The notes below the pieces were generated by a model, which was not told where the DNA came from, did no database searches, and saw only the letters and a program-made list of their open reading frames with translations. From positions 1 through 64,000 of the forward strand of contig JANQEE010000050.1 of assembly GCA_028278525.1 (NCBI GenBank): a stretch of DNA of 64,000 nt. Direction: 5' to 3'. Origin of the DNA: Minwuiaceae bacterium (GTDB taxonomy: Bacteria > Pseudomonadota > Alphaproteobacteria > Minwuiales > Minwuiaceae). The position numbers and the translations under genes are program-made. Shown piece by piece: positions 974-53,854 of the stretch; within the stretch, counting starts at the first letter, position 1, and each line of letters begins with the position of its first letter.

Positions 974-1066
974 CGATCTTCAAATCCTACTTAATGATCC
1001 GTCGAGAACTACTCGTTTCCCACCCACCGGTCAAAGGCGGATAGTCGCACGCATCGTCAACCTTGC

Positions 1067-1100
1067 GGGTCGGGGCACGACAATTGCCGTGCCCCGACCC
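1067..1100. promoter_or_regulatory. perfect 13-bp hairpin in the aminotransferase leader
   Basis: GGGTCGGGGCACG at 1067-1079 pairs perfectly with 1088-1100 around the eight-base loop ACAATTGC. It ends 19 bases before the ATG at 1120, with the ribosome site GGAG between. No T-run follows and no gene on the plus strand precedes it, so it is not an ordinary terminator. It could be an RNA leader hairpin or a DNA operator for the divergent LysR protein. Confidence 0.5.
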
Positions 1101-1119
1101 GGATATTTGGAGTGAATGA

Positions 1120-17101: not shown

Positions 17102-17851
17102 ATGGCGGGCTTCCACCGATTCCCAACCAAGATTGCGGTTCTCGCATGCTGCTGCGTGGCGGCGGGATGTGCCGGCACTGGCGATGGGTTCGCGGTCTCG
17201 GCCGGCAATCAGCCGATCGCTCTGTTCGGCGGCCTGACCGGCGCGAGCAACGCGGGCCTGACCGAGGACGACCTGCTGGCCGCGTCGCAAATCGGCCTCG
17301 ACACCACACCCGCGTCCCGCGACATCGAATTCGCCCATCCGGCAGCGCAGAGAATCGACCTGCTGGGTAAAAAGGCAATGGCCGTCATGGCCGACCCCGG
17401 CGTCGACAGTTCGAGGCGGGAAGCGTTCTTTCGCGAGTTGATGGCGGAAAACCTGGATGCCCGAACGATCGGCCGGTTCGTCATCGGCAAGCACTGGCGA
17501 CGCGCAAGCGCGGCCCAGCGCGATGCCTATATGGCCGCTTTCGAGCGCTTCATCGTCCGTATTTCGGCGCGCCAACTGAGTCTGGTGACATTCGACCGGT
17601 TCGAGGTCGTCGACGCAAAACCGGGCAGGAAGAAAACCATTCTGGTCAAATCCCGCACGGTGCGCCAAGGCAAGCCGTTCGGTATCGTCTGGAAATTACG
17701 GCCCCAGGGCGACCGGTTCCTGGTCGTCGACCTGGCGGTCGAGGGCGTCAGCATGGCGATGGCACGGCGCCAGGAGTTCAACAGCATCATCCAATCCAGC
17801 GGCGGCCAGATCGACAGCCTGATAAGCCGCCTGGAGAGCTTCCGGGGTTAG
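17102..17851 (+). CDS. MlaC/Ttg2D-family lipoprotein
   Basis: 249 residues. The N-terminus (MAGFHRFPTKIAVLACCCVA then AGC) is a lipoprotein signal with lipobox VAAGC, so the protein should be anchored to a membrane facing the periplasm. Residues about 85-240 match the MlaC fold. This comprises FFRELMAENLDARTIGRFVI, GKHWRRASAAQRDAYMAAFE, then a beta-rich part with RQGKPFGIVWKLRP and VDLAVEGVSMAMARRQEF. MlaC carries phospholipids between the outer and inner membrane; homologs with hopanoid genes are known as HpnM. Neither mla transporter genes nor hopanoid genes are nearby, so its partner is elsewhere. The ATG at 17102 follows AGGAGAGGCGG. Confidence 0.8.
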   Translation: MAGFHRFPTKIAVLACCCVAAGCAGTGDGFAVSAGNQPIALFGGLTGASNAGLTEDDLLAASQIGLDTTPASRDIEFAHPAAQRIDLLGKKAMAVMADPGVDSSRREAFFRELMAENLDARTIGRFVIGKHWRRASAAQRDAYMAAFERFIVRISARQLSLVTFDRFEVVDAKPGRKKTILVKSRTVRQGKPFGIVWKLRPQGDRFLVVDLAVEGVSMAMARRQEFNSIIQSSGGQIDSLISRLESFRG

Positions 17852-17875
17852 GAGGGATTCCTCTGTTGCAACCAA

Positions 17876-17949
17876 GCCGGCCCGCTCCCCCGTCCCAACC
17901 ACCCATACAGGGTACCCTATGGGTGGTTGGGACGGGGGAGCGGGCCGGC
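17876..17949. repeat. long intergenic hairpin, copy 1
   Basis: A perfect 32-bp stem (17876-17907 with 17918-17949) encloses a ten-base loop that itself contains GGGTACCC. The arm begins GCCGGCCCGCTCCCCCGTCC. A fragment of the right arm follows at 17970-17990. It lies between the convergent MlaC-like and subtilase genes. The same arm sequence recurs at 24923 and 53164. Confidence 0.9.
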
Positions 17950-17998
17950 CTGGACCCTGCCGTATAAGAGACGGGAGCGGGCCGGCTAGGCCTTCACC

Positions 17999-19282
17999 CT
18001 AATTCCGGCAGGACCGTGGCATCTCCACATATCCCCAGCCGTAGATCTCGTCGCGGCCGGGATCGCCCAGATCGACCGCGACCCGGCGCAGATTGGCGCG
18101 CAGCGCCGCGGAGCTGAGCATCGTTCCCCGCGCCACTTCCAAAGTCATCAACGCCGAGACGAAAGGCGCCGCGAAAGATGTGCCACTTTGGTAGCGGCCG
18201 CCGCCCGGCACCGCCGTCCAGACCCCGACCCCCGGGGCCGCGAAATCGATGTAGCTGCCCTGATTGGCGTGGCGATAGACCGAACGCCCGGCGCCGACCG
18301 CCGTGACGGCAACGACTTCCGAGTAAGCAGCGGGATAGGCGGGTTGCGCCTCTGCGCCCCAATTGCCGGCCGCCGCGACCATCACGATCCCCTTGGCGTG
18401 GCCGCGCCGGAACACCAGCCGCGTTACTCGGTTGTCGGACCCGGCGATCGATAGATTGAGCACCGAGACACCGCCGGCAACCATCCAGTCTATCGCCTTG
18501 AAAAGCGCGTTGGCGCTGCCGACGGTGGTGCCGCTTTCTTCCAGTTGGAAGATGTTCGCCGCCTTGAGTCGGGCGCCTGGCACCAGCCCGCCCCATCCTT
18601 CCGAGGTGCGGCCGACCAGCATCGCGGCGATCGCCGTGCCGTGGTTGGCCGGTCCCGGCTGCCGCCCCCGATCGTGGAACGACCGGTAGTCGACGCGCTG
18701 ACCGCGCAGCGCCGGATGACTGGTATCTACGGCCGCATCGATCATGCCGAGCGTCATCCCGGCGCCGCATGCCGCACGGTCGACCGCCGACCGACCGGTC
18801 GAGCGCGTCCGTCCGGCCGATCCGGCGGACGGCTCGAACAGCTGATTGACGTCGGCGACGATGCCTGGGAAACGCTGCCGAAGGCGGGATATGGCCTGGT
18901 ATTCAGCCATCCCGCTGGGAATTCGGAGCAAATAGAGATCGAGCTGCAGCGCCCGCAGTGGCGCATGTTCGATGACCGAAAATCCCAGGCGGCGCAGCGC
19001 CGGGACAAAGCCGCGCGGCGGGTCCAGTACGATCACCTCGCCCCGGCGATACAGGCCGCCCGGCGCGCCACCTTTGACGCCCCTGGACGGCGGGCGGGCC
19101 CGGACTTCGGACTGGCCACGGGCCTTGCTATCCAGGTCCGACCCGTGGATACCGATCACCCGCCCGCTGCTGTCGTAATCCAGAGCCTTTGATTGAGCAT
19201 GCAGAACATCGATCGGCGTGCCGGCAGCTACGCCCAAAGCCATTGAAAGAACAGCGAAAATCCAAGGGTACCGCATCGCCAC
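17999..19282 (-). CDS. S8 family (subtilisin-like) serine peptidase
   Basis: 427 residues with an N-terminal signal peptide (MAMRYPWIFAVLSMALGVAA), so exported. The catalytic triad is visible: Asp in GMIDAAVDTSHPALRGQ (about residue 182), His in NHGTAIAAMLVGRT (about 220) and Ser in GTSFAAPFVSAL (about 370). The oxyanion-hole Asn is in AAAGNWGAEAQP. The region before residue 150 replaces an inhibitor-type propeptide (VIEHAPLRALQLDLYLLRIP). It ends soon after the catalytic domain and has no sorting or membrane anchor. The gene is alone on its strand and converges on the MlaC-like gene across the long hairpin. Confidence 0.9.
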   Translation of the reverse strand: MAMRYPWIFAVLSMALGVAAGTPIDVLHAQSKALDYDSSGRVIGIHGSDLDSKARGQSEVRARPPSRGVKGGAPGGLYRRGEVIVLDPPRGFVPALRRLGFSVIEHAPLRALQLDLYLLRIPSGMAEYQAISRLRQRFPGIVADVNQLFEPSAGSAGRTRSTGRSAVDRAACGAGMTLGMIDAAVDTSHPALRGQRVDYRSFHDRGRQPGPANHGTAIAAMLVGRTSEGWGGLVPGARLKAANIFQLEESGTTVGSANALFKAIDWMVAGGVSVLNLSIAGSDNRVTRLVFRRGHAKGIVMVAAAGNWGAEAQPAYPAAYSEVVAVTAVGAGRSVYRHANQGSYIDFAAPGVGVWTAVPGGGRYQSGTSFAAPFVSALMTLEVARGTMLSSAALRANLRRVAVDLGDPGRDEIYGWGYVEMPRSCRN

Positions 19283-24895: not shown

Positions 24896-24922
24896 ACGCA
24901 TGATTGGTTCTCTATGGCACCG

Positions 24923-24995
24923 CCAAGCCGGCCCGCTCCCCCCCCCCAGCCACATCCGGTGCGGACGGCTGGGACGGGGGAGCGGGCCGGCTTGG
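24923..24995. repeat. long intergenic hairpin, copy 2
   Basis: A 29-bp stem with two mismatches (24923-24951 with 24967-24995) shares the arm CCAAGCCGGCCCGCTCCCCC with the hairpins at 17876 and 53164. Near the tip the arms change together (CCCAGCC/GGCTGGG in place of CCCAACC/GGTTGGG), so pairing is kept. The loop has no GGGTACCC. It lies between the two paralogous genes. Confidence 0.85.
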
Positions 24996-25155
24996 CCTAC
25001 AATCATCATCGCGCCCTAAAGATACATCCGAAGAGAACGATCAAAACGCCAGCCGAAATTAACAAAGTATATACCCGGGACATTCTATTTAGGTTCATCA
25101 AGGTGACCCTGAATTAAAGGCGTGTCGGTACTTGCCGACTAAATCCTTTCGATCG

Positions 25156-52612: not shown

Positions 52613-53143
52613 ATGCTCTCGCAGGCGTTTAAAGCAGGTTCTCCAACCTTGATCTGGCGCGGATTGATAGGGACGACCCTGGCCCTTGCCATTGCGGCGG
52701 CCGCCGGGCCGGCGGTGGCGCAGGCCAAGAAATCCGGCCTGCCGATCCCCCGCTTCGTGTCGCTCGGCTCCGGAGAGGTCAATGTCAGAACCGGTCCTGG
52801 CAAGCGCTATCCCGTGAGCTGGACGTTCGTCCGCAAAGGCCTGCCGGTCATGGTGGTCGACGAGTTCGAGCACTGGCGGCGGGTCGTCGATTCCGACGGC
52901 GCCGTCGGATGGGTGCACAAGGCGCTGCTGTCCGGGCGCCGCACGGCCCTGGTCAGCGGCGCGACCAGGCCTTTGTTTCGCGAACCCAACCCGGCCTCCA
53001 GCGCCCTTCTGCTGGCCGAGGAAAACGTGCAGGGCCGGCTGTTACGCTGCGAGCCCAATTGGTGCGAGATCGAGATCGACGACCGGCGCGGCTGGATGCA
53101 GCGCGACCACTTCTTCGGCGTGCTGAAGGACGAGGTTTTTTAG
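52613..53143 (+). CDS. SH3-domain periplasmic protein
   Basis: 176 residues with an N-terminal signal peptide (about 36 residues, ALAIAAAAGPAVAQA). Two bacterial SH3 modules follow: SLGSGEVNVRTGPGKRYPVS to DGAVGWVHKALLSG and RPLFREPNPASSALLLAEE to RRGWMQRDHFFGVL. The pair WVHK/WMQR ends each module. It probably binds peptidoglycan or a periplasmic partner. The gene stands alone and converges on the DUF3501 gene across the third long hairpin. Confidence 0.8.
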   Translation: MLSQAFKAGSPTLIWRGLIGTTLALAIAAAAGPAVAQAKKSGLPIPRFVSLGSGEVNVRTGPGKRYPVSWTFVRKGLPVMVVDEFEHWRRVVDSDGAVGWVHKALLSGRRTALVSGATRPLFREPNPASSALLLAEENVQGRLLRCEPNWCEIEIDDRRGWMQRDHFFGVLKDEVF

Positions 53144-53163
53144 AGATATCAGGCCAAGGCGAA

Positions 53164-53238
53164 GCCGGCCCGCTCCCCCGTCCCAACCACCCATGAGGGT
53201 ACCCTGTACGGGTGGTTGGGACGGGGGAGCGGGCCGGC
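53164..53238. repeat. long intergenic hairpin, copy 3
   Basis: A perfect 29-bp stem (53164-53192 with 53210-53238) shares its arms, GCCGGCCCGCTCCCCCGTCC and the following bases, with copy 1. The 17-base loop again contains GGGTACCC-like sequence (GGGTACCCT). It lies between convergent genes. Confidence 0.9.
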
Positions 53239-53260
53239 CTGGCGGCCATACGGAATCCCC

Positions 53261-53854
53261 TCAATCCAGATCTTCTGCCAACGCAGCCCGCACTTCCTCC
53301 GGCAGAATCGCGATATGTCGGTACTCCGGATGGTCGACCCTTAGCTGGACGTCCGCACCCGCCGTCTTGAACGCCGCCGCCTGCGCGTCGGTCATCGGGA
53401 AGTGCAGGAAGTGCACGCTGGACGTTTTGCCGTCGGCGGTGGTCCGCTCCACGTCCTGTTCAGGCACGGCCGCGATGGAGTCGCCCGCCACCGTGATCGA
53501 GATCTTGTCCTCGATATGGCCGAGCCTGGCCAGTTCGCGGTGGCGGCGCACCTCGTCCGGAATCTCGATCATGAAGGTCGCCACCAATTCGCGGCCCTTC
53601 GGGACCAGCGGATTGTAGGCCTCCAGCTCGTCGGCAACCTGCGCATCGCCGCCGCCCTCGGCCCGCAGCATCTCGTGTACCTGCCACCACATCGTCTCGT
53701 AGTTCTCGAAGTAAAACGTGGTGAACGGCCCGACCGATACGCGGCGGTTGCTTTTCACCGCGCGGATTTCGACGGATTTCGCCGCACGGACGGATTCGAA
53801 TTCCGCCATCGGCATGATGTCGTCGGGGCTGATCTCACGCTTTGCTACGGACAT
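53261..53854 (-). CDS. DUF3501 family protein
   Basis: 197 residues. It begins MSVAKREISPDDIMPMAEFE and has VGPFTTFYFENYETMWWQVH, then ELEAYNPLVPKGRELVATFM, the hallmark of DUF3501. The family co-occurs with a rubrerythrin and a heterodisulfide-reductase-like Fe-S protein; both are the next genes upstream. Function unknown; a role in electron delivery for peroxide reduction is inferred from context. No membrane segment. Confidence 0.85.
   Translation of the reverse strand: MSVAKREISPDDIMPMAEFESVRAAKSVEIRAVKSNRRVSVGPFTTFYFENYETMWWQVHEMLRAEGGGDAQVADELEAYNPLVPKGRELVATFMIEIPDEVRRHRELARLGHIEDKISITVAGDSIAAVPEQDVERTTADGKTSSVHFLHFPMTDAQAAAFKTAGADVQLRVDHPEYRHIAILPEEVRAALAEDLD

Follow-up and report, generated by a model that had tools for sequence, protein, structure and literature searches.

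Three long hairpins lie between genes in the window analysed here, a stretch of 64,000 nucleotides (contig C71; the draft genome comprises 5.95 Mb in 71 contigs). They raise the question of whether such structures serve the gene ends at which they stand, or are copies of an element dispersed over the chromosome; the preliminary description had put forward both a REP/MITE-type element and a lineage-specific bidirectional terminator. From the evidence set out below, we consider it likely that the hairpins belong to a non-autonomous mobile palindromic repeat of the broad REP/MITE class.

Coordinates of the three hairpins and adjoining features in the window
Feature	Position	Strand	Details
Hairpin copy 1 with outer stem	17872..17953	.	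arms 17872-17907/17918-17953, 97% complementary
Copy 1, perfect arms	17876-17907/17918-17949		32 bp; loop CAGGGTACCC
Hairpin copy 2 (variant, altered loop)	24922..24996	.	arms 24922-24951/24967-24996, 93% complementary
Hairpin copy 3	53159..53243	.	arms 53159-53192/53210-53243, 94% complementary
Copy 3, perfect stem	53164-53192/53210-53238		29 bp; AGGGTACCCT within loop
TAG stop of gene upstream of copy 1	17849..17851	+	arm 24 nt further on
Copy 1, B-type T-rich flank GAGGGATTCCTCTGTTGCAA with GATTC (GANTC)	17852..17871	+	many copies have the same flank type
Tandem half-unit (GACGGGAGCGGGCCGGC TA GGCC), right of copy 1	17970..17992	-	1 mismatch in 15
Stop codon adjoining the 17970 half-unit	17999-18001	-	
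Stop codon preceding copy 2	ends 24895		copy 2 starts 27 nt later
Flank between TAG stop (53141-53143) and copy 3	53144..53158	+	
Copy 3, right flank, read on this strand as TGA-GGGGATTCCGTATGGCCGCCAG; B-like with GATTC	53239..53260	-	reaches the stop of the - strand gene at 53261

The three hairpins are real and far beyond chance. They are the three longest inverted repeats in the window (arms at most 60 nt apart), with DNA folding energies of -51.1, -42.9 and -47.0 kcal/mol for copies 1, 2 and 3 and z-scores of -13.5, -8.9 and -10.3, and none of 200 shuffles folded equally well. The stem lengths given earlier (32, 29 and 29 bp) are correct, the third measuring about 29-30 bp, as is the common arm; the reported right-arm fragment behind copy 1 is also present. 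Two of the hairpins had been described as lying between convergent genes, which holds for copies 1 and 3; copy 2 stands between tandem genes. The compensatory change ascribed to copy 2 holds in part: one A to G exchange altered both arms (AACC/GGTT to AGCC/GGCT), but the GT to CC change is confined to a single arm, and the loop is different and shorter. In an Rfam search of the window at the gathering threshold only a tRNA fragment was matched, and there was no match for the hairpin. Elsewhere in the window (1066-1101), an 18-bp near-perfect spacerless palindrome, CGGGTCGGGGCACGACAA/TTGCCGTGCCCCGACCCG, lies between divergent open reading frames; it is unrelated to the hairpin family.

Genome-wide, there are far more than three copies. 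The 20-nt arm matched exactly 93 times compared to 0 for the reversed control, and 212 times compared to 9 when up to three mismatches were allowed. A covariance model built from 23 hairpins gave at least 150 matches in the genome, counting both strands of the palindrome, and 75 complete hairpins of ~75 nt plus 32 half arms were recovered from the 730 kb of genome loci examined. A hand count places a hairpin within 200 bp of about 35 of the 142 contig ends, and one contig end, C22:110508, is a fold-back inverted copy (C22:110435-110597). The assembly is thus interrupted at the hairpins, so that more copies exist than were recovered; we infer a number near 100. This is also a practical warning, in that the hairpin element causes artefacts in this draft assembly.

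The copies share a defined architecture. Each element runs from a T-rich end of about 15-20 nt through GCC-NN, a 29-nt GC arm, the loop, the complementary arm and NN-GGC to an A-rich mirror end. The core consists of a GCC-NN-GCCGGCCCGCTCCCCCGTCCCAACCACCC arm, a loop of 15-17 nt built on AGGGTACCCT, and the complementary arm closing in NN-GGC; the GC stem measures 34 bp and the whole element about 115-150 bp. The flanks fall into type A (GAGTCTGTTCAAGAATGCC), a variant A' that adds a small side hairpin (AAAATGCGTC..GACGCATTTT), type B (GGGATTCCTCTGTTGCAGCC) and type C (GAGCGTGATGTGTTTTGG). Each of the types A, B and C is found at loci that are otherwise unrelated, with left and right sides combining independently. 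In an A-type subset, with elements of about 140-150 bp, the end is longer and bears the small side hairpin and termini resembling terminal inverted repeats (TIRs), GAGTCTGTTCAAGA / GTGTCTGTCCAAAA. Half-units are sometimes arranged in tandem, as with the fragment at 17970, and similar units occur at C13, C41, C46, C52, C55, C57, C59 and C63.

The hairpins lie mostly behind the ends of genes. None of the 75 full hairpins overlaps a predicted gene. With gene calls from a simple codon-usage script, so that individual contexts may be wrong, hairpin junctions comprised 31 tandem, 19 convergent and 10 divergent pairs (15 further hairpins lie at contig or locus ends), compared to 240, 47 and 106, respectively, for junctions without a hairpin. 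Convergent junctions are thus enriched (19/60 versus 47/393). The stem usually lies ~15-25 nt behind a stop codon: stop-to-stem distances fall off sharply below about 14 nt and are 28 nt or less in 54 of 77 cases, while start-codon-to-stem distances spread over 20-250 nt. The adjoining stop is enriched for TAG, both in the window genome (44/82 versus 175/566 elsewhere) and in G003, a closed genome of the same family (22/55 versus 80/630).

Such placement is what a bidirectional terminator would show, or a 3′-end barrier protecting mRNA after Rho-dependent termination, with each copy kept for its function; it also fits sphingomonad plasmids that carry the hairpin, which lies between convergent genes in both annotated ones. 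The details of sequence, position and pairing nevertheless make this explanation unlikely. A U-tract follows the transcribed stem in 0/63 cases in the window genome and 0/55 in G003 (0/118 together), the polarity is the reverse of that of a terminator (T-rich before the stem, A-rich after it), and terminator prediction called none at copy 1. T content at positions -14 to -8 beside the stem is 44% on stop-facing and 45% on start-facing sides, falling to background by about -32; because it is equal on both sides, the T-rich stretch belongs to the element. Ten copies stand between divergent genes, and hairpin positions are not conserved with respect to G003 (see below). Moreover, GTAG and CGTC REPs have a similar placement near gene 3′ ends (PMC3733652), and GTAG REPs often supply a TAG stop (PMC3733652), so placement does not discriminate between the two readings. 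Intrinsic terminator function, and with it this half of the earlier proposal, is not supported.

The stem itself was compared between copies for signs of selection on RNA. Pairing is about 94% whether or not a gene ends upstream of the copy, and in the sense RNA G-U pairs are not favoured over A-C (8 versus 17 in the window genome, 16 versus 23 in G003). The equal integrity of the stems, also away from gene ends, and the lack of a G-U excess argue against selection at the RNA level, and a transcript-level function is not supported. Both arms nonetheless change together. The two variable nucleotides of the foot pair with their partners in 45 of 72 copies, in ten dinucleotide combinations, and elsewhere in the stem both arms had changed at 39 positions, where shuffles gave 3.8 and, in 2000 of them, never more than 15. 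Upkeep of the palindrome at the level of DNA, through folding-dependent movement or arm-templated repair, fits these observations better than a role in the transcript.

Relatives were searched with a covariance model (R1), which, among 385 alphaproteobacterial genomes, placed the hairpin in at least 26, the window genome included; copy numbers are lower bounds outside the window genome and G003. The arms are genus-specific, others including CCAGCCCTCTCCCCCTCCCGACCACCC and CCGGCCCGCTCCCCCGCCCGGCCACCC. The term lineage-specific in the preliminary description accordingly applies to the arm sequence but not to the hairpin family. The exact arm of the window genome occurs in other families (a Sneathiellales MAG, JANQPL and CATOSZ), and near-identical arms are found in two other-family genomes (G009 and G130). 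None of the eight same-family genomes (G001-G008) has the exact arm, and the hairpin carriers among them (G002-G004) have a different one. This distribution of arm sequences suggests horizontal spread. Further afield, read by eye, the S. sanguinis plasmid pNP2-R2 has the same end, TGA-GTGTCCGTTTAAAAA followed by a small hairpin. One hairpin of G009, the Sneathiellales MAG, has an IS5-like element of ~0.9 kb inserted in its loop at CTAG (L050:2325-3264); with its CTAG ends it is of an ordinary kind, and its presence was read as incidental.

The hairpins do not stand at the same gene ends in G003. Of 15 hairpin-bearing 3′ ends in the window genome that have a G003 orthologue, none has a hairpin there, and the reverse comparison gave 0/6. 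The element thus moves or turns over, and the non-shared positions support dispersal within each lineage, although they could also arise by rapid loss. No truncation of a host protein by insertion was seen in the 12 homologue pairs compared. Taken together, the many intergenic copies, the shared flank modules and the absence of positions in common with G003 support the proposal that a REP/MITE-type element has become dispersed over the chromosome. We infer active mobility and a model in which a trans-acting enzyme would recognise the element ends or the folded stem and paste copies, these surviving chiefly downstream of stop codons, where they presumably do no harm. In this model, DNA-level processes would preserve the palindrome, either a need to fold in order to move or templated repair in which one arm is rewritten from the other, rather than selection for an RNA hairpin at each gene.

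A mobilising enzyme was not found among the Y1 transposase, DDE_Tnp_1 and TIR-like matches in the window genome. The single PF01797 (Y1, RAYT-like) match lies at C57:385-726 and adjoins an AT-rich palindrome, AAAAAAGGGGAGATTCATCTTTTTGC; the nearest hairpin copy is at C57:21551, and the GC arm is absent from the 1.3 kb examined beside the transposase. At the start of that contig (L031:1-70) the AT-rich palindrome reads CTAACAAAAAAGGGGAGATTCATC..GTTAG, and it is probably the repeat of this Y1 transposase. Membership of a RAYT/REP system was rejected, since the only Y1 transposase stands beside an unrelated palindrome and a RAYT with the arms of the family is absent; the RAYT link that had been suggested as a check thus came out negative. 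Candidate loci for a parent insertion sequence of the A-type ends (C17:74510, C12:88043, C66:7937 and C3:27621) contained nothing but solo or degraded elements, and DDE_Tnp_1, of which the window genome has one fragment, was rejected as a parent because the ends do not match. No autonomous parent with the same ends was therefore present among the element's own TIR-like matches or the DDE_Tnp_1 loci of this draft, whose breaks at repeats could hide one. A 3-bp target duplication, convincing by eye at first, was not significant when counted (4 of 16 A-type copies, compared to a shuffled mean of 1.9).

The distribution of copies along the chromosome was examined in G003, G036 and G305. In G003, 49 of the 57 copies found lie in the origin-proximal half (p 1e-8), as do 26 of 34 clusters after merging copies within 20 kb (p 0.003); its parS sites lie at 1.774-1.783 Mb, and the sampled GC skew switches sign in the same region. 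In G036, 10 of 13 copies are origin-proximal, a weaker case that assumes a genome length of 4.64 Mb. Such clustering in G003 and G036 is not expected for a random mobile repeat, and could point to a chromosome-scale role as a folding, segregation or replication-timing site near the origin, kept by selection. This we regard as extremely unlikely: the six copies in G305 split into three near the origin and three near the terminus, loop orientation shows no bias with respect to replichore or gene strand, and positions are not conserved. In the window genome, a further inverted repeat (CATCCTTCGACAGGCTCAGGATGAGG..CCTCATCCTGAGCCTGTCGAAGGATG; L209:15-110, C40) was noted near the parS-bearing region.

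The element ends are also enriched for GANTC, the CcrM-type site. Its density 15-30 nt outside the stem is 21.3 per kb compared to 3.1 in other intergenic DNA of the window genome, and in G003 it is 11.1 per kb at 0-15 nt compared to 2.9; the enrichment arises partly because flank types A and B share descent. Dam hemimethylation gates IS10. By analogy, the hairpin could be a class-wide alphaproteobacterial mobile element whose movement is gated by putative GANTC (CcrM) methylation, an idea that we hold to be improbable. If true, GANTC sites in the ends would stay hemimethylated longest near the origin, where copies would be most active and would accumulate, which would explain both the enrichment and the origin clustering.

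The GANTC sites, together with the alphaproteobacterial hosts, strictly intergenic position and length of about 110 bp, invite comparison with the CcrM-associated intergenic repeats (CIRs) of Caulobacter and Brucella. However, CIR elements are described as a pair of arms connected through a linker, with GANTC at a terminal loop (PMC2229807), unlike the one giant hairpin with GANTC in its ends seen here. Compared on that description, membership of the hairpin family in the CIRs is very unlikely.

The mobile palindromic repeat that we favour has the general features of REPs, being of high copy number, intergenic, palindromic and close to gene 3′ ends. CGTC REPs are likewise palindromic, multicopy and mainly alphaproteobacterial, with no dedicated transposase known, but measure 20-40 bp, with a loop of 4-5 nt, an unpaired CGTC tag and a CCA-type tail (Di Nocera 2013, PMC3733652). 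In the present family, CGTC occurs only within the paired arm, and the untagged 34-bp stem has a loop of 15-17 nt. A CGTC-type REP (CGTCATTGCCGGACTTGATCCGGCAATCCAG) stands directly left of one hairpin copy (C35:232271, L080). GTAG REPs and REPINs with their RAYTs are similar in forming intergenic palindromes near stops, often giving TAG, and mosaic arrays; the hairpin family has neither the GTAG foot, its own being GCC-NN after a variable T-rich flank, nor an arm-flanked RAYT. MITEs such as Correia/NEMIS and RUP are comparable in their length of 100-200 bp, intergenic position and strong structure, and TIR-like ends, here confined to the A-type subset; they differ in that no secure target duplication or parent insertion sequence was found here. 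A search of a paper on intrastrand triplexes (PIT/TMECO) yielded no alphaproteobacterial or sequence match. BIMEs of enterobacteria are palindrome mosaics with interchangeable flank modules built on alternating REPs; they resemble the family in joining a palindrome to swappable flanks, but are unrelated in sequence and lack its one giant hairpin. The hairpins represent a palindrome family that is widespread in Alphaproteobacteria and apparently undescribed, one that carries neither of the tags by which the two known REP superfamilies are defined and whose strong both-arm change does not resemble RNA selection. This makes a case for asking how palindromes without a transposase spread, why their distance from the preceding stop codon varies so little, and what makes them gather near the origin.
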